Virus record (IMG/VR): IMGVR_UViG_3300006750_000009
Location: 1 to 60,091 of that record
Origin: a virus
Direction: 5' to 3' (one strand)
Length of the DNA: 60,091 bases
This document shows, piece by piece, positions 4,734 through 58,915 of the stretch (positions are counted from its first letter, which is position 1; the number at the start of each line of letters is the position of its first letter). A program made the position numbers and the translations under genes. The notes beneath the pieces are model-generated. The model worked only from the letters and a program-made list of their open reading frames with translations. It did no database searches and was not told the DNA's origin.

Positions 4734-4737
4734 TCTA

Positions 4738-5334: not shown

Positions 5335-5335
5335 A

Positions 5336-25728: not shown

Positions 25729-26246
25729 TGTCAAAAATAAAAAAAGATGAAGAAAGTCGTGTAAACTATCAAATTCGCGCACACAGAGTTTTGGTCATAC
25801 ACGATGGTCAGAAACTCGGAGAAATGCATCCTAAAGATGCTATTGCAAAAGCACAGGAATTGGAGTTAGATCTTGTTGAGGTTGCTCCAAATGCAAAGCC
25901 TCCTGTGTGTACCATCATGGATTATGGAAAGTGGAAGTACGATCAATCTAAAAAAGATCGTTCTTCCCAATCTCACTCTTCAAAGTCTGAAGTTAAAACT
26001 GTGAGAATGAGGCAGAACACGGAAGACCATGATGTAGAAACTAAACTTAAGTTAATTAAAAAGTTTCTAATTAGTGGCAAGAAAGTCCAATTGCAAATAA
26101 GAAGCAAAGGACGAGAGCTTGCTCACAAGGATCGTGGTCTGGAAATTGCCAAGCATATAATTAAAGAGCTTGAAGAAATTGGCAAGCCAGAAGCTACTCC
26201 GCGAATCAATGGCAACGAAGTTAGTTGCCGTATCAACCCTGTGTAA
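25728..26246 (+). CDS. infC: Translation initiation factor IF-3
   Basis: 172 residues, ATG overlapping the previous TAA by one base. Both domains are present: an N-terminal domain (NYQIRAHRVLVIHDGQKLG, then LVEVAPNAKPPVCTIMDYGK) and a C-terminal domain (VKTVRMRQNTEDHDVETKL, LISGKKVQLQIRSKGRE). The linker is lysine/serine-rich. IF-3 binds 30S and checks start codons. Together with IF-1 and bS21 it would let the phage alter initiation. Confidence 0.92.
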   Translation: MSKIKKDEESRVNYQIRAHRVLVIHDGQKLGEMHPKDAIAKAQELELDLVEVAPNAKPPVCTIMDYGKWKYDQSKKDRSSQSHSSKSEVKTVRMRQNTEDHDVETKLKLIKKFLISGKKVQLQIRSKGRELAHKDRGLEIAKHIIKELEEIGKPEATPRINGNEVSCRINPV

Positions 26247-32037: not shown

Positions 32038-32466
32038 ATGAGTCAAGTCCCAGATGTTGTAGACTTTAAGCCAGTTGGATCAAATATTTTGATCGAATTA
32101 GTCAATAGTGAAGAGTTGTTGCCAGCAAGCGTCCTTGAAATCGTAGGTGAAACTGCGAATAAAATGGCAGATGATTTTGGTGCTCCACAAGCATATGTTT
32201 TGGCAGTAGGACCTGCTGCAAAGCCAGAAGATTGGGGATTTAGTGTTGGCGACCGTGTTGCCATTAGTGCAAAAATGACACCATTGCCACCAGTTGCTTT
32301 GTCAACAGATTCCCCAGAACTTTTGGACGTTCATGGCAAGCCAAGACGTGCAAGAGGTATTTTGGATAGCCCTGCTGGAATTAAGGCTGTATTGGTCGAA
32401 GCAGATGCAAGTGCAAATGCAGAGACGACAGAGAAGTGCTGTGGTGGAGGCTCTTGTAAGGTTTAA
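32038..32466 (+). CDS. GroES-like co-chaperonin
   Basis: 142 residues behind TAGGAGAT. The beta-barrel outline of Cpn10 is seen: FKPVGSNILIELV, YVLAVGPAA, WGFSVGDRVAI. It is longer than bacterial GroES (about 97) owing to an insert after the first strand and a 40-residue tail ending in CCGGGSCKV. The tail cysteines resemble the metal-binding ends of some chaperonins. A T4 gp31-like role in capsid folding is plausible. Confidence 0.65.
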   Translation: MSQVPDVVDFKPVGSNILIELVNSEELLPASVLEIVGETANKMADDFGAPQAYVLAVGPAAKPEDWGFSVGDRVAISAKMTPLPPVALSTDSPELLDVHGKPRRARGILDSPAGIKAVLVEADASANAETTEKCCGGGSCKV

Positions 32467-33440
32467 TGGATGATCTTTATTCTATATTAGGTGTCTCTGA
32501 AGACGCTACTCAGGATGAGATCAGTGCCGAGTACAAGAAACTAGCAATCAAATTCCACCCTGATGCTAGTTCTGAAGAAGGTGCATCCGAGAAATTTAAG
32601 CAAATATCAACTGCCTACGAGACGCTAGGAGATCCGGCGAAACGTAGGCAGTATGATATGCGCGGTCAAGGTGGCTTTAATATAAATATAAACGATTTCT
32701 TTGGAAGAGTTCGTAAAGCCGCGAACTCGCAGGCAAAGATTGAAGTTTCATTAGAAGAAGCCAAAACTGGTTGTACGAAGATACTAAAAATTAAACGCCC
32801 AATGAAGTGTGTTTTATGTAGTGGTACTGGTGCATCGAAGACTGAAAAGTGCGGAAATTGCCGTGGATCTGGCGTAGTGAATATGTCTGTTGATGGTCCG
32901 TTTAATGTCCAGTCTGCTTGTAATGTTTGTGGTGGTCGTGGAATGAAGATTTTAGAAAGTTGCAATGATTGCAATAACGGTATGGTTTCTGGTGAATCAG
33001 AAGAGGTTAGAGTCGAGATTCCTGCTGGCATAATGTCTGGGATGGCATTGAGGTTCCCAGGAAAGGGATCAGAGGGCGTTGAAGACCAGATGCCAGGGGA
33101 TCTTATAGTTCATATAAACGTCAAGAAGCATGATGTTTTTGATGTTAAGGGCGTTAATTTAATTTATAGAACCCCTATTTCTTACGCAAAGTTGGTAATG
33201 GGTTGTAAATTAGATGTTCCAACTTTAGATGGCGAGGTAATGGAAGTCACTATACCGCCAGGAACATTGAGTGGTTCTAATTTTAAATTAAGAGGTTTGG
33301 GCATGCCTGATCTGAACTATGATGGGTCAGGAGATCTGTATGCTGTGATAGATGTTGAGATACCGAAAGATTTGAGTGAAGAACATTTGAAAATAATAGA
33401 ACAATTAGTTGAGATTGAAAATGAAAAAAATAAACAATAG
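32466..33440 (+). CDS. dnaJ: DnaJ (Hsp40) co-chaperone
   Basis: 324 residues, ATG sharing a base with the previous stop. J domain 1-67 with HPD at 31-33, a short linker, a zinc domain with CVLCSGTG, CGNCRGSG, CNVCGGRG and CNDCNNGM (fourth motif altered), and both C-terminal beta domains. The G/F-rich region is almost gone. DnaJ recruits DnaK; the phage copy may redirect host DnaK to phage proteins. Confidence 0.92.
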   Translation: MDDLYSILGVSEDATQDEISAEYKKLAIKFHPDASSEEGASEKFKQISTAYETLGDPAKRRQYDMRGQGGFNININDFFGRVRKAANSQAKIEVSLEEAKTGCTKILKIKRPMKCVLCSGTGASKTEKCGNCRGSGVVNMSVDGPFNVQSACNVCGGRGMKILESCNDCNNGMVSGESEEVRVEIPAGIMSGMALRFPGKGSEGVEDQMPGDLIVHINVKKHDVFDVKGVNLIYRTPISYAKLVMGCKLDVPTLDGEVMEVTIPPGTLSGSNFKLRGLGMPDLNYDGSGDLYAVIDVEIPKDLSEEHLKIIEQLVEIENEKNKQ

Positions 33441-46002: not shown

Positions 46003-46248
46003 ATGAATAAGAAAAAAGAAGAAGGAATCGAAATTTCTGGCGTTGTTACAGCAGCAATGGGTGGAGATAAATTTAAGGTTGCCGTTAAAGATGAAGAAGG
46101 AAACCTAGTTGAAGGACATGAAGTAGTTGCTCATCTCGCAGGAAAAATGCGCAGATTTTACATCCGAATAGTACCAGGAGATGATGTCAAGGTGGAACTT
46201 TCGCCATACGATCTCACTAAAGGAAGAATCACTTACAGGAATAAGTAA
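46003..46248 (+). CDS. infA: Translation initiation factor IF-1
   Basis: 81 residues from ATG 46003. The OB fold is clear: [56 protein letters not shown]-1 binds the 30S A site during initiation. Phage-encoded IF-1 is rare; IF-3 and bS21 are also in this window. Confidence 0.92.
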
Positions 46249-46742: not shown

Positions 46743-46827
46743 GGTACAGCTACGCAATTATGCGAGAACAAAATAGTTGGCAAAATTGATTGCCAAAAAG
46801 CAGTTAACATTTTTTTGGAGAAGTTTA

Positions 46828-48339
46828 ATGGGAAATCGTTTAGGACTTATGCTTGGACTCACCGCTTGTGGTGTGGTTATGGCATTGGCGGGATTTTGGA
46901 TTGTATGGACAAGTTTTAGGATTGATGTCCCAGAAAAGCATTGTGCTGTTTTGACTCGACGAACTGGAATGGACATTCCTAACGATGCTGAAATTTCTCC
47001 ACTTCCTAAGGATGGATGGCATTACAAGGGCGTTCAACAAGAGGTTCTGTTGGAGGGTCGTTATTTTTACAATTGTTACAACTACGGTTGGAATGTAATT
47101 CCAATGTTTGAGGTTCCTACTGGCAAGTTGGCGGTCAAGGTTCGACGCATTGGAGCCGATCTTCCTGTCGGACAGTTGGTGGCTAGAAGTGAGGATCAAA
47201 AAGGAATTGTTTCTGAGGTTTTACGACCTGGACGTTACGCGATTAATCCACACATCTATGATGTAAAGCTATTCGATCCTGTCACTGTTCCTGCTGGATT
47301 CCGTGGAGTGAGAACGAATTTGAGCGGACCAATGCCAGAAGATCCAAATGTATTGTTGGTCACTGAAGGTTTTCGTGGAGTTCAGGAAAAGACATACGAA
47401 GAAGGAACTTATTACGTCAACCCTTATGTCGAACGAATTAATTTGGTTGATTGTCGAAGCAAGCGATTTAATTTGAATGAATCTGGCGAGATGGGATTCC
47501 CATCTAAGGATGGATTTTGGGTAAGTCTTGATGGTCGTCTTGAATTTAGAATTCAACCTGACAAAGCTGCAATTGTATTTGTTACCTATAATGATGTGAC
47601 AAATAAGGTGGGCATGACAGACCCGTTGGATCAAGAGATTATCAATAAAGTTATTATGCCAAATGCCAGATCATATTGTCGCTTGCGTGGTTCTGACAAC
47701 AGTGGTCGTGATTTTATTGGAGGTTCCACTCGTGAAGCTTTCCAAACCGATTTCTCTGATAAGATGGTTGCCGCATGTTCTCCACAAGGCGTAGAGATCG
47801 TTCAAGCTCTTATTACAAGAGTGGTTCCACCAAAGAGAATTGCCGATCCTGTTAGAGAGCGTGAGGTTTCTCTTCAGACTCTCGACCATTATACGCAAGA
47901 GATTAAGCTTCAAGAGGCTGAGAAGTCGTTGGCAATCTCTTCTGAGATGGTAAAGCGTGGACCCGCTATTAGAGCGGCTGAACAAAGTGTAACTAAAATT
48001 GTTGAGGCTGCTAACAAAGAGCAGAAAATTGCATTGCAAGAGGCAAATAAGAATTTTGGAGTTGCTGAGCGTGATTTAGAAGCTGCTAAGGATAAAGCTG
48101 AAGCAATTTTGGCGAGAGGCAAAGCAACAGCAGCAGTTATCATATTCAACAATGAGGCACTTGCCGCTGGATGGAAAGAAGGAGTGACAGCTTTTAATGG
48201 AGACGGGGATGCATATTCTCGAATGTTCCTATTGCAAAAGGTTGCCCCAGGCTTTACGGGCATCATGGTTAATACGGCTGAAGATTCTAGTCCCTTGATG
48301 GACATTTTCAAAGAATTTAACGAACAGCCACAAAAGTAA
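46828..48339 (+). CDS. SPFH/Band 7 membrane protein 1
   Basis: 503 residues from ATG 46828 behind TTGGAG. One N-terminal span (about 5-30), then an SPFH core (VPTGKLAVKVRRIGADLP, VPAGFRGVRTNL) and a long charged coiled coil (EIKLQEAEKSLAIS..., AERDLEAAKDKAEAILARGKA) with a short end. Band 7 proteins such as HflK/HflC form large ring cages on membranes. The neighbour is a paralogue, so a two-subunit cage is likely. Confidence 0.85.
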   Translation: MGNRLGLMLGLTACGVVMALAGFWIVWTSFRIDVPEKHCAVLTRRTGMDIPNDAEISPLPKDGWHYKGVQQEVLLEGRYFYNCYNYGWNVIPMFEVPTGKLAVKVRRIGADLPVGQLVARSEDQKGIVSEVLRPGRYAINPHIYDVKLFDPVTVPAGFRGVRTNLSGPMPEDPNVLLVTEGFRGVQEKTYEEGTYYVNPYVERINLVDCRSKRFNLNESGEMGFPSKDGFWVSLDGRLEFRIQPDKAAIVFVTYNDVTNKVGMTDPLDQEIINKVIMPNARSYCRLRGSDNSGRDFIGGSTREAFQTDFSDKMVAACSPQGVEIVQALITRVVPPKRIADPVREREVSLQTLDHYTQEIKLQEAEKSLAISSEMVKRGPAIRAAEQSVTKIVEAANKEQKIALQEANKNFGVAERDLEAAKDKAEAILARGKATAAVIIFNNEALAAGWKEGVTAFNGDGDAYSRMFLLQKVAPGFTGIMVNTAEDSSPLMDIFKEFNEQPQK

Positions 48340-48369
48340 TTTATTTCAAACAAAAAGAAAGACAGATAA

Positions 48370-50037
48370 ATGTTGAATAACTTAAAGAAGTATGGACTCC
48401 CGGTTTTGTTGCTTGCAGTAGTGGTTGGGGTTAGCGTGTTGTTCGTCCAGTGGACAATCAACAGAGTTTATGTTCCAGAGGGATGTAGCATGGTATTGCG
48501 GTACAAAGGTCCGTTGCCATTCGTCCCAGGAAAAAGAAGGTATGCCAAAGAAGGTCACTTCGCAGTAGTTGACAAAGATGGACATCAAGAGATTGGAATC
48601 CTTGCAGACCTAAAAGGACCAGGGCGACATTTTTATTGTCCAATCTGGTGGGAAAGAACAATTTTTGATCATGAAGGATTGGGAAGAGGCGATAACCCAA
48701 GTGATACGAATGTAATGCTTGTTCGACCAGGACAGGTTGCAGTTGTTCGATCTGCTGTAGGAGATGACCTTCCAGAAGGAGAGTATCTTGTTGATGGCGA
48801 ATTGGGAGAAACTAACAATAAAGGAATCCTGCGAAAAGTTTACGGACCAGGAATCTATCGAGCGCATCCTTACGCTTATCAGTTCACAATTGTTGGAGAA
48901 GAGGTAGAAGATAAGGGCGGACAAGTTAAGCATTCTGGTTGGGTCGAAATTCCAACTGGATATGTTGGAGTTGTTACAAATAAAGCGAATATTCCAGCAA
49001 AGAAGCTCACAAAGGGAATTCAAAAAAATGTCCTCCCACCAGGATTGTATCCAATCAATGGAAAAGAACAGGAAATTGATATTGTCGAAATTGGCTATCG
49101 AGAAACGACCGTTCGGGTAGTCAACAAAACAGATAAAGCTGGAAAAGTTTTGAAGTCGGATTCAGGAGAACCATTGATTGCTGATGGATCATCTGGAATT
49201 GACTTTCCAAGTAGCGATGGATTTGAAATCTACATGGACTTCACTGCAATTTGGGGAGTTATGCCAGACCAAGCAGCGTCTATTATTAGCCGATTTGGAA
49301 ATGTCGATGCAATTGAAAATAGAGTGATACTTCCTCAAATCGAGAGTATCGGAAGAAATAAAGGATCTTCATATTCGGCAAAGCAATTGTTGGTAGGAAC
49401 GGATCGAGCGGTTTTCCAAAAAAGTATTTCCGATAAATTTAGGACAGTTTTGGAAGGGAAAAGCTTGACGTTAAGCGAAGGGTTGGTAAGGGCTGTTTAT
49501 ATCCCACAAGAGGTGCTGAAGCCAATCCAAGATAAGTATGTCGCTGACGAAAATAAAATTACTCGCGAACAGCAGCAAGAAACTGCGTTAGAAGAAGCGA
49601 AACTACGCGATGCAGAGCAAGAGGTTGCTTTAGAACGTCAAGTTGTTGAGTCTCAAACTGATGTGTTGGTTGGAGATGAGTTAGCTGCTGGCGATAAGGA
49701 AGTGGGAGAAATTCAAGCCGACACCAGAAAGCTGGTTGCCGAAATTGATAAGAAAACAGCGATGCTTGAGGCTCAAGCTGAAATTTTACTTGGACAAGCA
49801 TCGGCAGACGCTAAAAAAATGAAAGCTGAAGCTGAGGCTGGGAAGTTCAAACTAGCTGTCGCGGCGTTTGGATCACCACTAGCTTACAATAAGTACATCT
49901 TTGCCTCGCAACTGCCAGAGAGTGTAAAGTTGAACTTCATGTATGCTGGAGAAGGAACTTTGTGGACGGATTTGAATAAGGCTGGAAAAGGAATTCAACC
50001 TACAATTCCTTTGCGACAAGCGCCTGAAAACAAATAG
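48370..50037 (+). CDS. SPFH/Band 7 membrane protein 2
   Basis: 555 residues from ATG 48370. N-terminal span (about 10-30), SPFH part (IPTGYVGVVTNKANIPAKK, DFPSSDGFEIYMDFTAIW), then a Gln/Glu/Lys coiled coil (REQQQETALEEAKLRDAEQE) and a non-charged tail. It follows protein 1 by 30 bases and ends at a strong terminator, so the two are one unit. Confidence 0.85.
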   Translation: MLNNLKKYGLPVLLLAVVVGVSVLFVQWTINRVYVPEGCSMVLRYKGPLPFVPGKRRYAKEGHFAVVDKDGHQEIGILADLKGPGRHFYCPIWWERTIFDHEGLGRGDNPSDTNVMLVRPGQVAVVRSAVGDDLPEGEYLVDGELGETNNKGILRKVYGPGIYRAHPYAYQFTIVGEEVEDKGGQVKHSGWVEIPTGYVGVVTNKANIPAKKLTKGIQKNVLPPGLYPINGKEQEIDIVEIGYRETTVRVVNKTDKAGKVLKSDSGEPLIADGSSGIDFPSSDGFEIYMDFTAIWGVMPDQAASIISRFGNVDAIENRVILPQIESIGRNKGSSYSAKQLLVGTDRAVFQKSISDKFRTVLEGKSLTLSEGLVRAVYIPQEVLKPIQDKYVADENKITREQQQETALEEAKLRDAEQEVALERQVVESQTDVLVGDELAAGDKEVGEIQADTRKLVAEIDKKTAMLEAQAEILLGQASADAKKMKAEAEAGKFKLAVAAFGSPLAYNKYIFASQLPESVKLNFMYAGEGTLWTDLNKAGKGIQPTIPLRQAPENK

Positions 50038-50105: not shown

Positions 50106-50729
50106 ATGAGACTTATTTATTCGAATAAATTCAAAGTTGTTGTAGAGCAGCCTCCGTCTTGTAGGTCTGTTAAAATAGTTTCAAATAGGTTTAATTTGAA
50201 TCGTAATTTTTTTCTTTCTTTTCCATATGTGGTATATGCGTTAGACAAAAAAGACTTTATACTTCAGGTTGGATTTCGAAATAAGCCAACAAATAAAAAG
50301 GATTTTGAAGATGGAGGAATTTATCTTCCTCCCCTTCCAAATGTTTACTCTGATGATTTAGAGACTTGTTTGGGAGACAATGTTCCAGAGAGTGCAAAAG
50401 AAGAAAAGTGGGACATTAGAAAAATGATAAGTGTGTTTTGGCAATCTACGTTTATTGAAGATGAGGAGTCGTGGGTTTCAGTCGATTCATGTTACTCTTC
50501 TTTTTCTAAGGTTGCAAGAAAGCAAGCTATACATCCACGGTTTAAGGATACGCCATCTGAGGGCGGATATTACATCTGGGAAGCCTTGTCTAAGAAAGAT
50601 CCTAACTTTGTGCTAAAGATGGATTGGCCAAAGCCTCGTGCTTATAGCAGGGATTCCGCAAAAGTTGAGTCTGTGATTGATTTTACATTTGTGGATTTGA
50701 ATGGAAATCAAAATGAATGGGTTAATTAA
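50106..50729 (+). CDS. E2-like protein 1 (short paralogue)
   Basis: 207 residues from ATG 50106. It has the order of the bacterial E2 family tied to PRTRC/ThiF systems: a FPYVVYAL strand, then YLPPLPNVYSDD, Cys88 in LETCLGDN, and a helix ending SVFWQSTF. The Cys is shared in position with the two paralogues at 51318 and 55984, so it is the predicted thioester residue. It lacks their ~95-residue N-terminal helical part. It would accept the Ubl from the E1-like protein. Confidence 0.7.
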   Translation: MRLIYSNKFKVVVEQPPSCRSVKIVSNRFNLNRNFFLSFPYVVYALDKKDFILQVGFRNKPTNKKDFEDGGIYLPPLPNVYSDDLETCLGDNVPESAKEEKWDIRKMISVFWQSTFIEDEESWVSVDSCYSSFSKVARKQAIHPRFKDTPSEGGYYIWEALSKKDPNFVLKMDWPKPRAYSRDSAKVESVIDFTFVDLNGNQNEWVN

Positions 50730-51242
50730 ATGTCAAGAGTAAAAGACTTTTTGTTTGGGACGCCAGTGAACGTAATAGAGGTAAAGTCGCCAGATTCACT
50801 GATGGGACGCAGTGACAAGTGTAATATTTTCCCTATTGTCTTTTTGGGTGGGGGAATTTCTGGAACGGAAGATTGGCAAGCGGGATTTTCGGAAAGAATT
50901 TCTGATGTTGATATTACAGTGATAAACCCAAGACAGGAAGTGTATGTGGAGGGAGAACAGAGCGCAATGGACCAAGTTAGATGGGAATACAACCATTTTA
51001 AGGTTGTCGAGCGTGCTGAAGGCTTGTTCTTTTTTTGGTTCCCTCCAGAAACATTGTGTCCTATAACTTTGTTTGAACTTGGAAAATTTATTCGACAAGA
51101 TCATTTGATTGTTGGTTGCGACCCTGGATACAAAAGAAGATTCGATGTAAAAGAACAATTGAAATTAGAGCGACCAGACGTTACCGTTTTTGATTCATTG
51201 GATGCAATGGAAGACGGAGTAAGAAGATGGGCGTTAAAGTGA
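50730..51242 (+). CDS. Nucleoside 2-deoxyribosyltransferase-like protein
   Basis: 170 residues, ATG directly after the previous TAA. FLGGGISGTEDWQAGF, VINPRQE and WFPPETLCPITLFELGKF match the Nuc_deoxyri_tr2 family, a Rossmann-like fold related to TIR-type NAD-processing domains. Function may be nucleotide salvage or hydrolysis; its place within the Ubl cassette makes an accessory role possible. Confidence 0.7.
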   Translation: MSRVKDFLFGTPVNVIEVKSPDSLMGRSDKCNIFPIVFLGGGISGTEDWQAGFSERISDVDITVINPRQEVYVEGEQSAMDQVRWEYNHFKVVERAEGLFFFWFPPETLCPITLFELGKFIRQDHLIVGCDPGYKRRFDVKEQLKLERPDVTVFDSLDAMEDGVRRWALK

Positions 51243-51251
51243 TTTTTTTTG

Positions 51252-51280
51252 TTTACAAACATTGAAATGTGAAGTATAAT
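51252..51280 (+). promoter_or_regulatory. Phage promoter before E2-like gene 2
   Basis: TTTACA at 51252-51257, 17-base spacer ending GAAG, TATAAT at 51275-51280, 38 bases before the ATG. Confidence 0.85.
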
Positions 51281-51317
51281 CAATTACAAGACTTAAAGAC
51301 CTAGTTTAGGATGAAAA

Positions 51318-52490
51318 ATGTCAACTGCAAAAAATAGAAGAAAAGTGGCGCATAAAATTTCTAGGGGAGTTGAGAAATTCCTTGAGGAAAACAAGGATTC
51401 GACAGAGCCAGCCAAGGTAGCTGTCCACACTGCTGTGGAAGGAACTTTGAAAAGCTTGCAGGGCAATATCGGCGCTGATCTTGACGCAGTGGCAAGAGAG
51501 CAGAGTATTGCATTGGCGAAAACTTTGCAAAAATCACTTTTTCAATTGGCTAACGACACTTGGTTCGACCATGACAAGGGAGATATGATGATAGTGCCAG
51601 AAGGCACTAGATTTGTACATCGTCAAGGAACAACTGTTTACATCGCAATTGAAGAAAAGCCTCAAGTTAGAAGTATTAGATACGAAAAAGGAAATAGAAC
51701 CTATAATTACAGGGTTGCTTTGCCTTATTGTATCTTTATTTTCCCCGTTGGGACTTTTGTTGATGATAACGGAAATCCACGTTACAACCTGAATCAAGGA
51801 AAGTTGGCATTTTCGAAACAGCCACTTACATCTCTTGATCAGGAGGTGTATTGTCCGTGCCTTCCTAACATCAATACAGAAGATAGAGAATTGAAGATTT
51901 GCATGGGTGGAGCGTTTAACTTCAATGTAAATGAAACTCTGTGCGAACAAATAAGACTTTACATAACTCACTTCTGGGGCGCTCCATTCGGAACAGATTG
52001 GGCACATGAATTTGAAAGAATGGGCGGAAAAGACAGAAGGTTTGCAAATTTCAACAGATGGCAAACTGCATCGGAAGAAAATCCGTTGTTTGTTTTGGAA
52101 GATGAAATCGAATATAGATCTGCCGGAACATTTGGAAAGTTGGTGCTGGAGAACATTACTGACAGCAGCGATATTAACGTTCCGTTGCGTAAGATTGTAA
52201 AAACTGCTGTTGACAGTCTTGGTCAAGATGTGATCAGAACATTGAGACAGGCTGACTTGCTGAAAAACTTTGACGCCAAGACGGTTGACAAGTGTGTGTA
52301 TGAGTTGATGTGTAAGTGTGTTCGTGATTGCGTTGATTCTGTTACAGATGATTTGGTTGTTGAAGACAGAGAAGAATTCAACAGTTCCAGAGATAGCCTT
52401 GAGGACGACTTGACCGACCTTCTTGTCACTCTTGAGAAAAGAGTAACCAAAGAAAAAGGTGAATCGTCTGGTTATTGGGGAAAAATTTAA
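51318..52490 (+). CDS. E2-like protein 2 (long paralogue)
   Basis: 390 residues from ATG 51318. A helical part (1-85), a beta segment PEGTRFVHRQGTTVYIAIEE (94-113), ALPYCIFIFPVGTF, CPCLPNINTED, Cys195 in LKICMGG and a helix YITHFWGAPFGTDW form the E2-like core. After it comes a C-terminal helical acidic part (290-390). The core pattern of a Pro-Asn strand, then Cys, then Phe-Trp helix is that of the PRTRC-B/Prok-E2 group. It is predicted to carry the Ubl on Cys195. Confidence 0.72.
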   Translation: MSTAKNRRKVAHKISRGVEKFLEENKDSTEPAKVAVHTAVEGTLKSLQGNIGADLDAVAREQSIALAKTLQKSLFQLANDTWFDHDKGDMMIVPEGTRFVHRQGTTVYIAIEEKPQVRSIRYEKGNRTYNYRVALPYCIFIFPVGTFVDDNGNPRYNLNQGKLAFSKQPLTSLDQEVYCPCLPNINTEDRELKICMGGAFNFNVNETLCEQIRLYITHFWGAPFGTDWAHEFERMGGKDRRFANFNRWQTASEENPLFVLEDEIEYRSAGTFGKLVLENITDSSDINVPLRKIVKTAVDSLGQDVIRTLRQADLLKNFDAKTVDKCVYELMCKCVRDCVDSVTDDLVVEDREEFNSSRDSLEDDLTDLLVTLEKRVTKEKGESSGYWGKI

Positions 52491-52499
52491 TCATTTCAT

Positions 52500-52528
52500 T
52501 TGTCAATTGTACGATTCTTAAGTATAAT
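52500..52528 (+). promoter_or_regulatory. Phage promoter 1 before the JAMM gene
   Basis: TTGTCA at 52500-52505, 17-base spacer ending TAAG, TATAAT at 52523-52528. Confidence 0.85.
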
Positions 52529-52586
52529 GGTTATAACGACGAACGAAAAGAAAAGTTGATGACGGAAAAATTTGGTAATTTTTCAC

Positions 52587-52615
52587 TTACCAAATCAAAG
52601 TTTACGAAGTATAAT
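52587..52615 (+). promoter_or_regulatory. Phage promoter 2 before the JAMM gene
   Basis: TTACCA at 52587-52592, 17-base spacer ending GAAG, TATAAT at 52610-52615, 42 bases before the ATG. Confidence 0.85.
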
Positions 52616-52657
52616 CTCTAGTAGAAGTTAAAACATTTTCGAGTTTGGGAGAAAAAG

Positions 52658-53821
52658 ATGAGTTTGACATTTCCTATCTACGTTGCTGAAAAAGGCAAGA
52701 AGTTGCCTGCAAAGGGAACGTATTATGTTGTGGGTCGCACAAGAAATTACTTGCATAAAGACACTGGACTTGTGCGTGCATTGGTTGAAGTTGATTCTAT
52801 CGGTGCTTTGCAAGACATTGAGCCATACGTTCAATTGTTGCTTCCAAAGCTTCCGCCAGACATTTTGTATCGTGCATGGAAGTTTTTCAATGCGGCATAC
52901 AATAAGTTTAAGTCGGAATCTGCCGTAGTGATTCACTACAACAAAGATGATGGAGAATACTATCTCCATTGCCCAGAGCAAACAGTTAGTCATGGAAGTG
53001 TCAACTATGATCTGGATGATCGTTTTGAAAACTATCAATTGGTAGGAACGATCCACAGTCACGCAGATTTCAATGCGTTCCACAGTGGAACAGACATTGA
53101 TGATGAAGTCGATCAGGATGGAGTTCACATCACACTCGGTCATGTGGATGGCAAATATTTTTCGGCTTCCGCTTGTTTGGTTGTGAATGGGACTCGTTTT
53201 GAAACGGCATTGGAGAACACTGGTCTTGGTGTTCGCAGAGTTACGATGAAAGATGGTGATCCAAATATTTCGGCTGGACGTGCCGACCGATACATGGTGT
53301 CATTGAGCGATGAGGAAAAAGCCGCTGTTGATGCCGCTTATGATCAAGAGATCAAGGATTGGGTTAAGGATAAGGTGTCTGGGAGACAAACTGGGTTCAA
53401 CAGAGGTTCCGTTGTAAGTTACCCAAGCACAACCCCTGCCAGCAATGGCAATAGTAGTGGTGTTTCTTCGACTTCGACTCGAAATGAGAGCACTTTTGTT
53501 CATCGTCTCGATCCAAAGGGGTCTGGTCGCAAGGGTTGGTTCAACCAAAATGGCGATGAATTGAATCCTTCCGATAATGAAACTTCTGCGGAAAAGCCAG
53601 AAAACGAAACTTCTGAGCAACCAGAAAACTGGGACGCTGAGGCGGTTTTGGCAGAGAATGATTTGCTTGAAGGTGCCGAACTGCCTAAAGCTGACGACGA
53701 TGTTGTCGATTTGACTATTGCTGATGATTCTTCGGAAGAATCTTCGGACGATGTTCCTGCTGGTGTTGCGGATCATCTTGACGAAAAAGAAGAGCCCACG
53801 ATTGGGCAGAAGGACAGTTAA
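52658..53821 (+). CDS. JAMM/JAB metallopeptidase (PRTRC-A-like)
   Basis: 387 residues from ATG 52658 behind GGGAG. The metal motif is complete: GTIHSHADFNAFHSGTDIDD, with His133, His135, Ser143 and Asp146; Glu88 is a candidate catalytic acid. This is the deubiquitinase-type JAMM fold. The sequence around the motif is very close to PRTRC system protein A. The last 170 residues are acidic and disordered. It may process the Ubl tail or remove it from targets; the E1-like gene follows at once. Confidence 0.88.
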   Translation: MSLTFPIYVAEKGKKLPAKGTYYVVGRTRNYLHKDTGLVRALVEVDSIGALQDIEPYVQLLLPKLPPDILYRAWKFFNAAYNKFKSESAVVIHYNKDDGEYYLHCPEQTVSHGSVNYDLDDRFENYQLVGTIHSHADFNAFHSGTDIDDEVDQDGVHITLGHVDGKYFSASACLVVNGTRFETALENTGLGVRRVTMKDGDPNISAGRADRYMVSLSDEEKAAVDAAYDQEIKDWVKDKVSGRQTGFNRGSVVSYPSTTPASNGNSSGVSSTSTRNESTFVHRLDPKGSGRKGWFNQNGDELNPSDNETSAEKPENETSEQPENWDAEAVLAENDLLEGAELPKADDDVVDLTIADDSSEESSDDVPAGVADHLDEKEEPTIGQKDS

Positions 53822-54574
53822 GTGATTAATAAATTAGAATGCCCCGAAATTAACAGCATCAGAGTTATTGGTGTTGGAGGGATTGGACTTAGCCTCCTAC
53901 CTTCTCTTTGCCGGTATTTGAACTACCACCCAGAGATTGATGATGTTGACGTGTTTCTGATTGATGGCGACGAATACGAAGCTCGCAATCAGAGTCGTCA
54001 AGCATTTCAAGAGATGGGGAACAAGGCTGAAGTTACAAGAAGACAGTATGAGACGGAGTTTCAAAATCTTTTTTTCAATGCTGTTCAGGAATATTTGACA
54101 GAAGACAATATTGGGTATCACGTTCGTGAAGGAGATATTATCTTTTGTTGTGTTGACAATCATTCCACAAGAAAGCTTGTTATTGAAGAGTGTCAAAACT
54201 TGGAAAATATGATCTTGATTTCTGGTGGAAACGATTTGTACGACGGAAATGTTTCCATCTACATTCGAGTTGATGGCGAAGATGTTACCAAGTCTCCAAT
54301 CGAAGTATACCCTGAAATTGCGTCACCTCCAGAAGGAGACGAAAATCCAGGTGATGTCGATGAAGAGAGAGAAGGTGGTTGTGCAAACGAAGTTGAGTCA
54401 ACACCTCAGATTTTGTTCGCCAACAACATGGCGGCAGCTATGATGGGAAATGCTTTCTATCAAGTGGTTGAAGGCAAGCATGGTAATCGCGGAGATTGGT
54501 ACTTTGACATTAATACCAACGCTACCCGTCAAAACGAAAGAGCTATGCCAAACGAAGCTCAAAAAATTAATTGA
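53822..54574 (+). CDS. E1/ThiF-like Ubl-activating enzyme
   Basis: 250 residues from GTG 53822 behind AGAAGGAC. Rossmann nucleotide site VIGVGGIG (15-22), the acidic/Arg set FLIDGDEYEARNQSRQ (Asp48, Asn56, Arg59), Lys68 and CCVDN (Asp112). Cys187 in GGCANEVESTP sits before the final helix, the position of the reactive Cys of ThiF/PRTRC enzymes. No second catalytic Cys domain. It would adenylate the Ubl C-terminal Gly and pass it to an E2. Confidence 0.85.
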   Translation: MINKLECPEINSIRVIGVGGIGLSLLPSLCRYLNYHPEIDDVDVFLIDGDEYEARNQSRQAFQEMGNKAEVTRRQYETEFQNLFFNAVQEYLTEDNIGYHVREGDIIFCCVDNHSTRKLVIEECQNLENMILISGGNDLYDGNVSIYIRVDGEDVTKSPIEVYPEIASPPEGDENPGDVDEEREGGCANEVESTPQILFANNMAAAMMGNAFYQVVEGKHGNRGDWYFDINTNATRQNERAMPNEAQKIN

Positions 54575-54582
54575 GAATCTAT

Positions 54583-54611
54583 TTAACATTTAGCATTATA
54601 TGAAGTATAAT
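54583..54611 (+). promoter_or_regulatory. Phage promoter for the Ubl gene
   Basis: TTAACA at 54583-54588, 17-base spacer ending GAAG, TATAAT at 54606-54611. The Ubl gene is thus expressed from its own promoter and not only from the E1 transcript. Confidence 0.85.
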
Positions 54612-54638
54612 GTAGTATAAGACAGTTTACTGTGTGTC

Positions 54639-54668
54639 GCCCATAACGGGCAATCGCCCACAACGGGC
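54639..54668 (+). promoter_or_regulatory. Twin small hairpins in the Ubl leader
   Basis: GCCCATAACGGGC and GCCCACAACGGGC, almost identical, lie in tandem between promoter and ribosome site, and a T6 stretch follows. They may act as a weak terminator/attenuator or mRNA stabiliser; the stems are only four G-C pairs each. Confidence 0.5.
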
Positions 54669-54697
54669 AAATTTTTTAACCTTCGGAGGTTTTTAGG

Positions 54698-55045
54698 ATG
54701 AGTGACCAAGAACAACGGCCACAAGACGACGCAAATGCTCAGCGTCCAGCAGATGAGCAAAATCAGAACCAAGCTGGTGACGCAGATGCAGCCGCAGATG
54801 CGGGCGATGCCGACAAAAGCAGCGATGCTGCTGGTTCTGTCACGGTTATTCATGGTGCGAATAACCAAAAGTTTGACAACCTTGCTGGCTCGACGGTCGG
54901 TGACGTTCGTGACACTTTGACTGACGTTTTCAACATTCCACAGGACGCACAAGCGTTGGTGAATGGCGAGAATGCTGGCGGAAACTATCGTCTCCGTCCA
55001 GAGGACACACTTGAGTTCATTCGCCAAGCAGGAGTCAAGGGTTAA
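54698..55045 (+). CDS. Ubiquitin-like beta-grasp protein (PRTRC-C-like)
   Basis: 115 residues from ATG 54698, after a strong GGAGG. Residues 1-46 are a disordered acidic Gln/Asp/Ala tail; 47-115 form a beta-grasp (SVTVIHGANNQKF, TVGDVRDTLTDVFNIP, AQALVNGENAGG, RPEDTLEFIRQAGVKG). The chain ends in Lys-Gly, like PRTRC-C and other Ubls, so no processing is needed to expose the Gly. The gene has the best ribosome site of the cassette, and its own promoter and terminator, as expected for an abundant small modifier. Confidence 0.8.
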   Translation: MSDQEQRPQDDANAQRPADEQNQNQAGDADAAADAGDADKSSDAAGSVTVIHGANNQKFDNLAGSTVGDVRDTLTDVFNIPQDAQALVNGENAGGNYRLRPEDTLEFIRQAGVKG

Positions 55046-55090
55046 ACCTTGACATCTTTGGCAGTGAAATCAGGGTGTAGCATCCCTTCC

Positions 55091-55129
55091 AAAATCGCCC
55101 CTGCCACATGGTGGGGGCGATTTTTTTTT
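55091..55129 (+). terminator. Rho-independent terminator after the Ubl gene
   Basis: AAAATCGCCCC / GGGGCGATTTT with an inner CCACATGG loop, followed by T9. Confidence 0.92.
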
Positions 55130-55148
55130 ATGTGTAAAGGAAATAATA

Positions 55149-55604
55149 ATGAATATGAAAAAGCCTAAGAAACCAAAGAGAGTGCATGGCAAGAACTATC
55201 TTGATCAAAAGGATCGTCATAAAGCGCAGAACTTGATGATGGAACCTTCCACGGCAAAGATAGAGCCTCATGTAAATAGATGGACTCCAAAGAACCCTGT
55301 CTGGGCAACTGTGTATGTTGGAAATGATTTTGTTCGTATTGAAGAACTGGAATCAATTGACAGTGTGGCAGGAAGAGTGTATGAAATTGTTGCAAAAAAT
55401 GGAGTTGTTGGTGGAAAGTCGTGTTCATGGCATGACACATTTTTGCATTTGTATTTGGAAGATCCAAATGAATCGGCAAGTTTTTCAGACAAAAAATGCA
55501 CTTTTTGTCTTGACCAATATGGACATGTTTGCATTCGAGGTATCGGCGGAATTTTAACCCCATACTCAGAGTGGAGAGAGGCAAATGCATCACTCAATTC
55601 TTGA
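55149..55604 (+). CDS. Hypothetical protein in the Ubl cassette
   Basis: 151 residues from ATG 55149 behind AAAGGAA. A Lys/Pro-rich basic start (KKPKKPKRVHGK) and a mixed alpha/beta remainder with Cys and Trp residues (GKSCSWHDTFLHLYLEDP, KKCTFCLDQYGHVCIRG). No family recognised. Its end overlaps the next gene by 20 bases. Confidence 0.65.
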   Translation: MNMKKPKKPKRVHGKNYLDQKDRHKAQNLMMEPSTAKIEPHVNRWTPKNPVWATVYVGNDFVRIEELESIDSVAGRVYEIVAKNGVVGGKSCSWHDTFLHLYLEDPNESASFSDKKCTFCLDQYGHVCIRGIGGILTPYSEWREANASLNS

Positions 55605-55974
55605 TGAATTATGCACAGATCATTATGAAGTGCGTTGGATGTGTGGTACGGACAATACAAGTGCGTTTCATGACTCTCTAAAGAAAGATGGGCTTGTGCT
55701 TCTGTTGTCAGCCATGTATGATTGTGGAGAAGTTGAGGATGGAGAGATACAAGAGTTTGTTGACAGGCTTTTGTCTGCTCACTATGAAAAAGGCGTCTTC
55801 TTTCCATTTGATACAGCCCTCTCAGCAATATGTGTGGCGATGGAGGATAAGAGAACACCATTCGCAAATCAGTTTCTAAAAAGTTTGTTGTCAGTTTTTG
55901 GAGGCACATGCGTAGAGTTTTTGAAGACAAGTAGAATGTCAAAAATGTGTTTTGAGATAAACGAAAAAAGTTAG
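55585..55974 (+). CDS. Hypothetical helical protein in the Ubl cassette
   Basis: 129 residues from ATG 55585. All-helical in appearance (LLLSAMYDCGEVEDGEIQEF, FANQFLKSLLSVF). No family recognised. It is nine bases upstream of E2-like gene 3. Confidence 0.65.
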   Translation: MHHSILDELCTDHYEVRWMCGTDNTSAFHDSLKKDGLVLLLSAMYDCGEVEDGEIQEFVDRLLSAHYEKGVFFPFDTALSAICVAMEDKRTPFANQFLKSLLSVFGGTCVEFLKTSRMSKMCFEINEKS

Positions 55975-55983
55975 GAATAAAAA

Positions 55984-56952
55984 ATGTCTAAAGATTATTG
56001 GTCTGGCGAGTTTGTTGATCTGTTAAACGATGGAGTCGCTGAGGACAAAAAAGAACAGTCTTCTATTCCGCAAGTTGAAAACATAGATGAAATTGTGGAG
56101 AATGGAAAAGACAGTCTCATGCGAGAGTTTGAAAAGTTGGCTTTACTGACAGCTTCTAATCTTCATAAGGGCGTTTTGTCAGATGCAGATGTTGATGTTG
56201 GAAAGTTAATGAGACAGTTTGAGAGCGACCTTGCAAACAGAATGTCAAGAACACTGTTAAGTGTGCAAGCAAGTCCCATGCCTCCTGGCACACGTTTCGC
56301 TTTGCCGTTTGGCAATTCCATTGTTTACGTAATTGAGCATGAGCCATGTGTTCGTTCCATCTATCATAGCCAAGGAATAAACGGTAAAGCATCCTTAGCG
56401 TTTCCATATATGGTTTTTGGGACGTTGGTGGACAAAAATAGAATACCAGGGCATCTACACATTGGATGCTCTAACAAGTCTCTCTCAAGCCTTGATGATC
56501 GTCTTGAACGAATTCACCTTTCTAACATTTATCAGAGTTTTAACAAGATGGGGGTTTGCGATTCTTCCATTAGTGGTGGCTCGGCTGCAAAAAAGGGGTC
56601 AACGGTTGCAGAAAAGGTAGAGGCAGTGATAACACAGTTCTGGGCTTCTCAATGGAACGGAGCAGGAATGACAAGTGAGTGCAAGGATTCGAAAGTTACC
56701 ACTATTGCCAGTTGGGAGAAGAATACAAAAAAAGATCCAATGTTTTCATTGAAGGTAAAGTGGCAGTCCGCTGGCATTAATGTTCGTCAATTTGCTGAAG
56801 GTCTTGCTGGATCAAAGATAGATGAAGAAAAGAAAAGCCATGCTCGATTGGACACTGATTTCAGAGGTCTTGGAAGAGAGTTGGTTGGCAATGTCACAAA
56901 TGCTCTAAATTTGCGTTTGGAAGAACAGGGGATTACATTCCGTGATGAATAA
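55984..56952 (+). CDS. E2-like protein 3 (long paralogue)
   Basis: 322 residues from ATG 55984. Collinear with protein 2: an N-terminal helical part, PPGTRFALPFGNSIVYVIEH (100-119), AFPYMVFGTL, then Cys192 in NKMGVCDSS and AVITQFWASQWNG. The proline-asparagine strand before the Cys is changed (LSNIYQSFN), and a Ser/Gly insert follows it. Lower similarity suggests a different target or an inactive partner. Its end overlaps the first MIB/HERC2-like gene by eight bases. Confidence 0.65.
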   Translation: MSKDYWSGEFVDLLNDGVAEDKKEQSSIPQVENIDEIVENGKDSLMREFEKLALLTASNLHKGVLSDADVDVGKLMRQFESDLANRMSRTLLSVQASPMPPGTRFALPFGNSIVYVIEHEPCVRSIYHSQGINGKASLAFPYMVFGTLVDKNRIPGHLHIGCSNKSLSSLDDRLERIHLSNIYQSFNKMGVCDSSISGGSAAKKGSTVAEKVEAVITQFWASQWNGAGMTSECKDSKVTTIASWEKNTKKDPMFSLKVKWQSAGINVRQFAEGLAGSKIDEEKKSHARLDTDFRGLGRELVGNVTNALNLRLEEQGITFRDE

Positions 56953-57277
56953 TGAATACAATGACAACACATTTTCAATGAAAAGGCTTTTGAACACGTA
57001 TAAAGAGTTGCATGGACTTAATGTAAGTGAAACTGGTCCTGTAACTAAAGAAAACGTTTTCGTTGGCGCAAGAGTGGCGAGCGCCCCTGATTGGATTTAT
57101 GGGGATCAAAATAGATACGATCACCAGGGCCGTCCAGTGGCGGTAACGCCTGGAATGAGCCTTGCTGGAACTGTTGTCTCAGCAGATAAGTATACTACGC
57201 ATGGTGTTTGTGTCGAGTGGGACACTGGCTACAAAGATGTCTACAGACATATAGATCTAGTTTTTTTTGAAAGTTAA
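56945..57277 (+). CDS. MIB/HERC2-domain-like protein 1
   Basis: 110 residues from ATG 56945. A short N-terminal helix (FSMKRLLNTYKELHG) and then FVGARVASAPDWIYGDQ ... GTVVSA ... VCVEWDTGYKDVYRH IDLVFF. That order of a V-Arg-V-x-G/A-PDW, Asp-Gln, GTV, WD-x-G and YR is the MIB/HERC2 domain pattern known from E3 ligases Mindbomb and HERC2. The fold call comes from motif order only. Its coupling to E2-like gene 3 suggests a role in target binding. Confidence 0.68.
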   Translation: MNNEYNDNTFSMKRLLNTYKELHGLNVSETGPVTKENVFVGARVASAPDWIYGDQNRYDHQGRPVAVTPGMSLAGTVVSADKYTTHGVCVEWDTGYKDVYRHIDLVFFES

Positions 57278-57280
57278 AAA

Positions 57281-57601
57281 ATGTCTGGGAACACAAACTC
57301 TCTTGCAAATCTTATTGGTAGATGGTCAAAGTTGTATGAATGTGAATTGTCTCTAGGTCCTGTAACTAAAGAAAATGTGTTTTTTGGCGCAAGAGTTGTA
57401 AGAGGCCCTGATTGGATATATGGTAATCAAGACAGAGAAGGAAACTATGGATATGAATATGCGCATCAAGACGATGATTGTAAATATATTGGAACTATTG
57501 TAGGAGGTCCAGACATGGATGGATATGCGTTGGTCATATGGGATACTGGTTGTCAAGACTACTATAGAATTGAAGATTGGCAAGATTTATTGTTTGCTTG
57601 A
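57281..57601 (+). CDS. MIB/HERC2-domain-like protein 2
   Basis: 106 residues from ATG 57281. This is the closest match of the set: FFGARVVRGPDWIYGNQDRE ... YIGTIVGG ... ALVIWDTGCQDYYRI ... DLLF, which agrees with human-type MIB/HERC2 domains at the RGPDW, GNQD, GTI and WD-x-G positions. The N-terminal helix (NSLANLIGRWSKLYECE) is shared with protein 3. Three bases separate it from the gene before. Confidence 0.72.
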   Translation: MSGNTNSLANLIGRWSKLYECELSLGPVTKENVFFGARVVRGPDWIYGNQDREGNYGYEYAHQDDDCKYIGTIVGGPDMDGYALVIWDTGCQDYYRIEDWQDLLFA

Positions 57602-57612
57602 AAGTTAAAAAA

Positions 57613-57933
57613 ATGAATGAAGAAACAAATTCTCTTGCAAATCTTATTGATAGATGGTCAAAGTTGTATGAATGTGAAATTGATGTAATTGCAACAGTTG
57701 ACAATATTTACATTGGCGCAAAAGTGTGGAAAGGTCCTACTTGGGGATGGTGGGTCGAAGCTGACGAACAAGTTTTCGGAAAAGAACAAGAAGGAGAAGG
57801 AGCAGGAGTGGGAATTGTTCGCTCCATGCCAAGAAAAATTAACGGTCAAATGTATGTCAATGTCGAATGGGAAAGTGGCGTTAGTAATGCATATTCAATA
57901 AGTCCAGAACAAGATCTCGTGTTGATTATATGA
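57613..57933 (+). CDS. MIB/HERC2-domain-like protein 3
   Basis: 106 residues from ATG 57613. The N-terminal helix is nearly identical to that of protein 2. The domain is more divergent: YIGAKVWKGPTWGWWVEADE, GVGIVRSM, VNVEWESGVSNAYSI and DLVLII. The PDW triplet is PTW. An ATGA overlap joins it to the next gene. Confidence 0.6.
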   Translation: MNEETNSLANLIDRWSKLYECEIDVIATVDNIYIGAKVWKGPTWGWWVEADEQVFGKEQEGEGAGVGIVRSMPRKINGQMYVNVEWESGVSNAYSISPEQDLVLII

Positions 57934-58295
57934 TTGTTCCAAAATCTATTAAATGTGTTTTTGAATCGTGGATAGAATTGAATGGCATTACATACAATTC
58001 TCGCATTTATGAACAAAGAAAATGCTGTAGAGCAGTAAGTGAATGCGTTAGGCAATGGGATGTGTATTGTGGTGGTAATTTATTTTTGAATAATAAAAAT
58101 GTATTTGTTGGAGCAAAAGTTCAAGATTTGTGTGGAGCCCATCGCCAATACGATGGCGAAATTGGAACGGTAATAGATGTTAGTAAAGTTTCCTATCCAG
58201 AGTGGCCGCAAGCACACATGGATGTTGTGATTCAATTTGATGGAGTTAAAATGTCTGGGTTTTATTATTACGAAGATTATGTATTTGTTGATTGA
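57930..58295 (+). CDS. Divergent MIB/HERC2-like protein 4
   Basis: 121 residues from ATG 57930. The N-terminal part is Cys-rich (KCCRAVSECVRQWDVYCGG). The second half keeps NVFVGAKVQDL, GEIGTVIDV, DVVIQFDGVKMSGFYYYEDY, matching its neighbours in outline though the PDW element is gone. Assignment rests on context plus these pieces. Confidence 0.5.
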   Translation: MIVPKSIKCVFESWIELNGITYNSRIYEQRKCCRAVSECVRQWDVYCGGNLFLNNKNVFVGAKVQDLCGAHRQYDGEIGTVIDVSKVSYPEWPQAHMDVVIQFDGVKMSGFYYYEDYVFVD

Positions 58296-58298
58296 ATT

Positions 58299-58613
58299 AT
58301 GAATAAAAATAACGACAACACTTTTGTGATGGAACGTCTTGTGGATGTGTGGGGAGAGTTAAATGGATGCGTAATTGAAGACGAAGTTGTTACAAAAGAA
58401 AATGCATTTGTAGGGGCAAGAGTCGCAAAGGGTCCAGACTGGGATTGGGGAGATCAAAACATTAATCCAAGAAGTGGGTTAGAAATGTATGGGAAAATTT
58501 TACGGTTGGACTCCGAAGATGAGTTCAACGAATATTGGGTGCAAGTCGAGTGGGAGAATGGAAGGGGAGACTCCTACAGAGTATATCCACAACGAGAGTT
58601 GGTGTTCGCATGA
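58299..58613 (+). CDS. MIB/HERC2-domain-like protein 5
   Basis: 104 residues from ATG 58299. Helix NTFVMERLVDVWGELNG, then VTKENAFVGARVAKGPDWDW, GDQN, GKILRL, VQVEWENGRGDSYRV and ELVFA, again the full motif order. The helix DNA is almost identical to that of protein 6. Confidence 0.68.
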   Translation: MNKNNDNTFVMERLVDVWGELNGCVIEDEVVTKENAFVGARVAKGPDWDWGDQNINPRSGLEMYGKILRLDSEDEFNEYWVQVEWENGRGDSYRVYPQRELVFA

Positions 58614-58915
58614 ACAGACATAACGACAACACTTTTGTGATGGAACGTCTTGTGGATGTGTGGGGAGAGTTGTATGATTGTTCAATTAGACCGAAAGGTG
58701 TAATTACAAAAGAAAATGCATATGTCGGAGCAAAAGTAATGAGAGGACCAGATTGGGGAGAATTATATGATTGTTCAATTCTATCACCAGAAGAATTGAC
58801 GTGGACATGGAATGAATACGTTGAAGCGTTATCAAGAAAAAAACAACCAGTTTCATACGACGATATGCGAAATGTTGGCGATAATGAACTGTTGCATATT
58901 AGGAGAATGAAATGA
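58610..58915 (+). CDS. Rearranged MIB/HERC2-like protein 6
   Basis: 101 residues from ATG 58610, ATGA overlap. It starts like protein 5, including ENAYVGAKVMRGPDW, but then GELYDCSI appears a second time (first at about residue 20), and an unrelated acidic/basic end follows. So the domain was cut after its first strand by an internal duplication or recombination. It is probably a non-functional or altered copy. Confidence 0.6.
   Translation: MNRHNDNTFVMERLVDVWGELYDCSIRPKGVITKENAYVGAKVMRGPDWGELYDCSILSPEELTWTWNEYVEALSRKKQPVSYDDMRNVGDNELLHIRRMK

Follow-up and report, generated by a model that had tools for sequence, protein, structure and literature searches.

The window analysed here is the whole 60-kb stretch of DNA given as positions 1 to 60,091 of IMG/VR record IMGVR_UViG_3300006750_000009, a genome fragment. 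Profile matches identified a terminase (TerL, phrog_2, 3.5e-26), PhoH (1.8e-63) and an RNA ligase/tail fibre attachment protein (1.3e-28), and because these are encoded on it the contig is considered a genuine phage, as had been supposed in the initial annotation. Positions 50106-56952 of the + strand hold genes for an E1/ThiF enzyme, a β-grasp ubiquitin-like modifier (Ubl), a JAMM/JAB peptidase and three E2-like paralogues, each at the place and on the strand first assigned to it. The features of this region and of the gene array that follows it are listed below.

50106..50729, + strand: E2a, E2-like protein, 207 aa, predicted catalytic Cys88 in LPNVYSDDLETC; Prok-E2_D (PF14460)
50730..51242, + strand: nucleoside 2-deoxyribosyltransferase-like gene between E2a and E2b; PF15891, 1.4e-14
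51252..51280, + strand: sigma-70-type promoter-like site TTTACA-17-TATAAT preceding E2b; matches the consensus at 11 of 12 positions
51318..52490, + strand: E2b, E2-like protein, 390 aa, predicted catalytic Cys195; UBC-like core at about 84-263 with helical flanks
52500..52615, + strand: two promoter-like sites, TTGTCA-17-TATAAT and TTACCA-17-TATAAT, upstream of the JAB gene
52658..53821, + strand: JAB/JAMM metallopeptidase, 387 aa, acidic C-terminal tail; PRTRC_A (TIGR03735)
53822..54574, + strand: E1/ThiF-family Ubl-activating enzyme, 250 aa, GTG start, Cys187; PF00899
54583..54611, + strand: promoter-like site TTAACA-17-TATAAT preceding the Ubl gene; matches the consensus at 11 of 12 positions
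54698..55045, + strand: Ubl, beta-grasp modifier (AlphaFold), 115 aa, C-terminus GVKG
55091..55133, + strand: intrinsic terminator, 15-pair stem and T run
55149..55974, + strand: two overlapping ORFans of 151 and 129 aa between Ubl and E2c; no Pfam match
55984..56952, + strand: E2c, E2-like protein, 322 aa, predicted catalytic Cys192; BLAST match to E2b
56942..58915, + strand: six tandem paralogues directly downstream of E2c, three with a recognisable MIB/HERC2 domain (PF06701)

The E1 protein matches PF00899 at 1.4e-12 (47.7 bits, cut-off 28.1). The residues ascribed to it earlier were all found: VIGVGGIG, D48/R59 and Cys187, which with K68 supply the GxGGxG motif, the Asp/Arg/Lys adenylation residues and the acceptor Cys of the E1/ThiF superfamily, and are 97-100% conserved. 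Cys187, Q196 and N201 are present in 71 of 71 relatives, in an alignment of low overall identity. The PDB matches of the E1 profile are MoeB, ThiF, UBA4 and UBA5, and it reaches Citrobacter BubCD (PDB 9ea4) at 1.8e-4.

Profile searches gave no family match for the Ubl protein of the window. In its AlphaFold model the Ubl domain (pLDDT 94-97) adopts a beta-grasp fold with an exposed C-terminal Gly, and residues 1-45, modelled at low confidence, are probably disordered. The best structural match of the model is MoaD (Z 9.4); ubiquitin matches at Z about 8. The sequence ends in ...EFIRQAGVKG, with the terminal Lys-Gly that had been described, and K114 and G115 are retained in 58 of 58 aligned relatives. 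This tail carries a single Gly after Lys instead of Gly-Gly, which counts against a conjugation reading. Extensions beyond the final Lys-Gly occur in 28 of 85 distinct Ubl ORFs, which is compatible with maturation by the JAB protein.

Matches of the JAB protein to PRTRC_A (TIGR03735, 2e-12) and Prok-JAB (4e-5) are both under cut-off. Its zinc motif is complete, as first read: E87, H133-S-H135, S143 and D146 form the JAMM pattern E...HxH...S..D, kept in 75 of 75 relatives. Alignment profiles of JAB, E2 and Ubl searched against PDB revealed no clear relatives by sequence.

The E2-like proteins are paralogues with a common Cys (Cys88, Cys195 and Cys192), as initially noted, and match each other by BLAST (E2c-E2b 1e-18; the two pairs with E2a 7e-10 and 8e-7). 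E2a lies above the Pfam cut-off of Prok-E2_D (PF14460; 27.9 bits vs 25), E2b and E2c singly lie below it, and 41 of 55 members of the E2 alignment match Prok-E2_D at E<=1. N184 and C195 (E2b numbering) are invariant, Cys195 in 73 of 73 sequences (alignment A6), and the motif of N and Cys is kept in E2a and E2c. The HPN histidine is absent from the window E2s, which retain its Asn and the Cys; among the 73 sequences no column C-terminal to the Cys shows a conserved His at 70% or more. In structural alignment of the E2b core (VIA-align) all rows were E2s, including eukaryotic ones, with Z of only 4.3-5.3, values that a common arrangement can also give. Foldseek with the whole E2b model found no match in PDB, E2s included, probably because of the helical flanks, and a search of BFVD returned three viral proteins without known function.

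The sequence AAGTATAAT occurs seven times in the window (0.8 expected), four of these within the operon; the promoter-consensus total of the region equals the shuffle expectation. Because the sigma-70-type promoter-like sites are strong, early expression by host RNA polymerase is our best guess, judged from promoter consensus. The terminator at 55091..55133 is predicted to close a separate Ubl transcription unit. The nucleoside 2-deoxyribosyltransferase-like gene is probably outside the cascade: it and an SPFH gene were considered as members of the system and rejected, as neither stands beside the operon in any other locus. No relatives of the two ORFans were found in other loci.

Single-protein scans of viral contigs with the E1, the JAB and the upstream epimerase as queries gave no matches, and relatives were recovered by alignment-based scans only. 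These scans of IMG/VR yielded 96 distinct E1s, 75 of them in loci where E2, JAB, E1 and Ubl occur together. Such recurrence in distinct viral loci, with invariant catalytic residues, rules out chance co-occurrence. Carrier contigs reach 527 kb, and TerL was found on 41 of 50. The families, the folds, the invariant catalytic residues and the dozens of other phages with the same set support the initial annotation in its reading of a complete Ubl conjugation pathway on a phage. In the largest clade the operon lies among core genes beside the phage RNA polymerase (65 of 67 class-A-like loci); class A operons adjoin RNA polymerase and recombination genes.

Divergent versions are carried by the cultured phages Bacillus KLEB27-3, Vibrio D69/D148/D181 and Salmonella Arash. 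Like the window, these have adjacent E2, JAB and E1 genes and a Ubl ending in G-x-KG; unlike it, they have a single E2, and their E1 and JAB proteins show about 20-31% identity to those of the window. In KLEB27-3 (four copies) and D69 (three copies) the Ubl is tandem and upstream, unlike in the window, and that of KLEB27-3 is a polyubiquitin-like precursor. In Arash the homologues of E2 and E1 bear the annotation 'structural protein'. Relatives of the window operon have 4-8 E2s for one operon E1 and one Ubl: three E2 copies lie in this 60-kb fragment and eight in a 527-kb relative. The extra copies are dispersed, and the Cys is kept in 15 of 15 extra E2-like ORFs checked. By gene content, one E1 with many E2s is a eukaryote-like layout in these phages.

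The tandem array just 3' of the region (56942-58915) was absent from the initial annotation. PF06701 matches exceed the cut-off of 33.5 in two of its genes (42.0 and 34.5 bits), which lie at 57281-57601 and 58299-58613, and a third reaches 24.9. The sole PDB matches of the array are MIB1 (5e-16) and HECTD1, both E3 ubiquitin ligases. The MIB/HERC2 domain is common to Mind bomb/HECTD1 ligases and the phage proteins, which differ in being single small domains (about 100-120 aa) in which Pfam matched no RING or HECT domain; no catalytic E3 of either type was found. The array proteins might, as a guess, be candidate E3-like substrate adaptors. No MIB/HERC2 genes were found in the cultured phages and plasmids searched, nor any PF06701 match in the records of 62 further carrier phages; of these searches, the second lacked a positive control.

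It is likely, in our judgement, that the phage operon is a functional ubiquitin-like conjugation cascade. Our best guess is that it acts early, either in takeover or by modifying early phage or host proteins; that host or phage proteins would be modified had also been supposed in the initial annotation. We infer the chemistry as follows. Gly115 at the Ubl C-terminus would be adenylated by the ThiF-type E1, carried on E1 Cys187, and passed to the Cys of one of the three E2-like enzymes, which would attach it to a target's amino group. Removal or recycling of the Ubl would fall to the JAMM peptidase. The JAB would also mature the Ubl in those relatives with tandem precursors or precursors that have extra C-terminal residues. 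Several E2s may be fed by one E1 and one Ubl, each E2 choosing targets of its own; the MIB/HERC2 proteins encoded downstream may serve as adaptors in this. A bolder proposal, which we hold only tentatively, is that large phages independently built a branching eukaryote-like ubiquitin system, in which one E1 and Ubl serve many E2s with their own targets and, here, the MIB/HERC2 array acts as E3-like adaptors rewiring the host proteome.

A sulfur-carrier pathway, with E1 and Ubl acting like MoeB/MoaD or ThiF/ThiS to supply the sulfur that a cofactor or a modified base requires and the E2s misread, would suit the nearest PDB profiles of the E1, which include MoeB and ThiF, and MoaD as best structural match of the Ubl. 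It is improbable given the invariant E2-type N..C motif beside nearly every E1, the alignment of the E2 core with E2s and the nearly constant presence of JAB; a sulfur-mobilising partner was not noticed in the window. The suggestion in the initial annotation that host Ubl-based defence is countered, by a module stripping host-applied Ubl tags (anti-Bil) with the other parts accessory or decoy, accords with the complete JAMM active site. It is unsupported as the main role, and we think it slightly more improbable still, because removal would need the JAB alone, yet the invariant active sites of E1, E2 and Ubl are kept intact.

Two further readings keep the chemistry of the conjugation cascade and change its target, and each seems to us unlikely to about the same degree. 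A resident phage could tag virion parts of superinfecting phages and spoil their assembly, as a Bil-like weapon: the four activities are those of BilABCD and BilD is weakly matched (E 0.0048), but BilA, BilB and BilC profiles gave no match, the operon of the largest clade sits among core genes by RNA polymerase and not in a variable cargo position, and the E2 expansion is dispersed. Alternatively, the Ubl could be fixed onto the phage's own structural proteins in morphogenesis, for which the Arash annotations speak, as do lambdoid phages, in which a JAB protein and a Ub-like tail assembly protein are neighbours (PMC1779556). Against this, the recognised structural genes do not adjoin the window operon, and the neighbours of class A operons are RNA polymerase and recombination genes.

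With the conjugation cascade, a pathway known from bacterial anti-phage defence is here owned by phages. If it works, bacterial viruses reprogram cells through protein tagging, and the one-E1/many-E2 arrangement offers a simple model for the evolution of E2 specificity. The cultured carriers Arash and KLEB27-3 make the pathway directly testable.

The ubiquitin system tags proteins in animals and plants, and bacterial Ubl conjugation is known as a host defence against phages. Searches of the available open-access literature returned no account of an E1-E2-Ubl-JAB pathway encoded by phages, and two jumbo-phage reviews (PMC7824862, PMC13282480) do not mention one. The initial annotation had likened the operon to PRTRC and Bil systems; the resemblance is correct, and membership of either is not borne out. 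PRTRC cassettes (PRTRC_A, PRTRC_B, ThiF, Ubl and ParB, on plasmids and in bacteria) share with the window homologous JAB and E1, an E2 of the broad Prok-E2_D family and the adjacent order E2-JAB-E1. The window E1 scores 40.0 bits against TIGR03736 (2.6e-10, cut-off 144.75), far below the level for PRTRC ThiF, and the JAB 47.1 bits against TIGR03735 (cut-off 101.8), far below that for PRTRC A. A PRTRC-type ParB, stated earlier to be absent, has no match in the window, which is a fragment, and none above cut-off in 17 relatives. The window operon differs from PRTRC in this lack of ParB, in a Ubl placed after E1, in multiple E2s and in being phage-borne.

Antiviral BilABCD operons have the same four activities and E1-E2-Ubl-JAB conjugation logic. 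The only Bil profile to match was BilD, marginally at 13.6 bits, and the operon is not assigned to Bil; compared with Bil/Bub systems such as Citrobacter BubCD, the window has Prok-E2_D E2s, several of them, carried by the phage itself. Class 6d operons (Iyer, Burroughs and Aravind 2006, PMC1779556) combine Ub-like, JAB, E1-like and E2-like genes; their E2 is without the classical HPN histidine and has a conserved His that lies C-terminal to the Cys. The window operon has this set of four genes, with E2s likewise without the HPN histidine. It differs from class 6d in that the alignment of the phage E2s shows no such conserved His at 70% or more, in that the E2 copies are multiplied, and in that the operon is borne by a phage.

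The initial annotation had claimed an E1, a ubiquitin-like modifier (Ubl), a JAB/JAMM peptidase and three E2-like genes. All six were located on the plus strand of the window, between 50106 and 56952. The region is organised as follows.

50106-50729, +, E2a; Prok-E2_D match above cut-off
50730-51242, +, nucleoside deoxyribosyltransferase-like gene, between E2a and E2b
51318-52490, +, E2b; paralogous to the other window E2s, alignment touching Prok-E2_D
52658-53821, +, JAB/JAMM peptidase; Prok-JAB and PRTRC_A matches, both below cut-off
53822-54574, +, E1/ThiF enzyme; ThiF PF00899, 1.4e-12
54698-55045, +, Ubl, directly after E1 in gene order
55149-55974, +, two ORFans, between Ubl and E2c
55984-56952, +, E2c; paralogous to the other window E2s, alignment touching Prok-E2_D
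56942-58915, +, six tandem small genes, after E2c

E2b and E2c were recognised as E2-like by paralogy and by the E2 alignment, of which 41 of 55 members touched Prok-E2_D in profile comparison. Two adjacent SPFH/Band 7 membrane-domain proteins (46777-50037) lie just 5' of the operon and were found in no related locus.

Overall identity of the relatives to the window proteins is low, yet the catalytic residues are invariant in the alignments: JAMM E87/H133/H135/S143/D146 (75/75), E1 Cys187 (71/71), E2 Asn184/Cys195 (73/73) and Ubl Lys114-Gly115 (58/58). The last Lys-Gly is the exact end of 57 of 85 distinct Ubl ORFs; the other 28 extend beyond it and would need trimming. The Ubl fold was checked by AlphaFold prediction (40-sequence alignment), and the model is a beta-beta-alpha-beta-beta beta-grasp domain (pLDDT 94-97) ending in a free tail at the C-terminus, and it matches MoaD (Z 9.4), ubiquitin (Z ~8) and also SUMO/SAMP. 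For the modelled E2b core (residues ~84-263), VIA-align matched only E2 enzymes (Rad6, UbcH5B, Ubc9, Cdc34 and Ubc12; 110-127 residues, Z 4.3-5.3), a specific but weak likeness; Foldseek alone found no E2 match to the E2b model.

By its sequence the window, an IMG/VR virus record of 60,091 bases, is phage DNA. It encodes a terminase large subunit (TerL), PhoH, a T4-type RNA ligase/tail fibre attachment protein and a phage-type helicase. A terminase match was present in 41 of 50 related contigs. The nearest TerLs (34-38% identity) are those of phages with the order E2-E2-JAB-E1-Ubl, and the window E1 groups, with moderate support, with the E1s of these phages; the closest E1 in the tree (52% identity) is from a 527-kb phage. 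The window also contains LAGLIDADG endonuclease and TnpB-like transposon genes (16842-18392, 18792-19871) 5' of a short terminase ORF (247 aa), phage-encoded translation initiation factors IF-3 (25728-26246) and IF-1 (46003-46248), peptide deformylase (14803-15276) and DnaJ (32466-33440). Two metabolic genes are unusual for a phage; they code for a thiamine-diphosphate enzyme (24103-25728) and an aldehyde dehydrogenase (30292-31761). Five genes (3597-11040) consist of degenerate ~55-aa repeats, KKKELLKLARKGGKRP...KEIKKLAPHWF, with one relative in the compared loci L007/L008.

Two alignment-based scans and profile searches collected 96 distinct E1 genes, at 75 of which E2, JAB, E1 and Ubl occur together. 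Related loci fall into three layouts. Class A, with 55 distinct complete examples, has the order long E2 (~850 aa)-JAB-E1-Ubl-second E1-like gene. In class B, to which the window belongs, the order is E2(-E2)-JAB-E1-Ubl, and in class C it is (poly)Ubl-E2-JAB-E1. Some class C carriers are cultured phages. Bacillus KLEB27-3 has four Prok_Ub domains in tandem, three Ubl-like repeats were identified by eye in Vibrio D69, and Salmonella Arash also belongs here. The Arash Ubl ORF (107-307 of its locus, L005) overlaps annotated gene gp251c in a different frame and is therefore probably missing from the record, where E2 and E1 are both annotated as 'structural protein'. The second E1-like protein 3' of the Ubl, seen in class A locus L047 (11153-12070) and ~43 unique class A loci, keeps GxGxxG and the Asp/Lys residues, seemingly without the Arg-Gln pair, and is possibly a pseudo-E1 partner. 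In class A, Ubl proteins such as that of L047 (10599-11078) carry a fused N-terminal domain weakly like the Rho N-terminal domain (E 0.05), and one class A JAB has zinc ribbons.

Nearly every class B genome has one operon copy each of E1 and Ubl by profile; the 84-kb contig has one additional weak match to each. E2 profile counts were three in the window, four in the 84-kb contig, seven in a 340-kb contig and eight in the 527-kb phage, the extra copies lying mostly distant from the operon. The Cys was retained in 15/15 extra E2-like ORFs checked, in most after an (L)PN motif. Such a one-to-many E1/E2 layout is typical of eukaryotes and would be unusual among prokaryotic Ubl operons.

The six tandem genes are mutually paralogous, and the first starts within the 3' end of E2c. 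At least three carry a MIB/HERC2 domain, known elsewhere from E3 ubiquitin ligases; two exceed the Pfam cut-off for MIB_HERC2, and one more matches below it (2e-5). Run against the PDB, a profile built from all six matched only three sequences, each of an E3 ubiquitin ligase: one of MIB1 (5e-16) and two of HECTD1 (~1e-3). The family (PF06701) was not seen in 62 other carrier phage records. The MIB/HERC2 domain itself is non-catalytic; from adjacency to E2c and family identity we infer that the six are candidate E3-like substrate adaptors.

Three promoter-like sites, each with 11/12 sigma-70 positions, lie directly 5' of E2b, JAB and Ubl. A strong terminator closes the Ubl gene, which therefore looks like a separate unit. 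For the promoter-like motif AAGTATAAT, the window has seven occurrences versus 0.8 expected (3499, 51273, 52521, 52608 and 54604 among them), four in the operon region. The sites and the enrichment suggest that the host polymerase transcribes the operon early, but in total, promoter-like sites in this region show no excess over shuffled expectation. Class A operons adjoin phage RNA polymerase beta-prime and beta genes (beta-prime in 65/67 class-A-like loci), and a phage sigma-factor-like gene precedes several class B operons. Since such neighbours may reflect shared descent within each class, they do no more than hint at the transcription machinery as a possible target.

The component families are known ones: class 6d operons (Iyer et al. 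2006, PMC1779556) contain them, as do PRTRC cassettes and antiviral Bil/Bub operons, and to this extent the resemblance noted in the initial annotation holds, but the window falls short of both the PRTRC and the Bil membership thresholds. The papers that were searched, two jumbo-phage reviews among them, gave no description of a complete phage-encoded Ubl conjugation system. We therefore regard the gene set in the window as a phage-encoded variant built from known component families.
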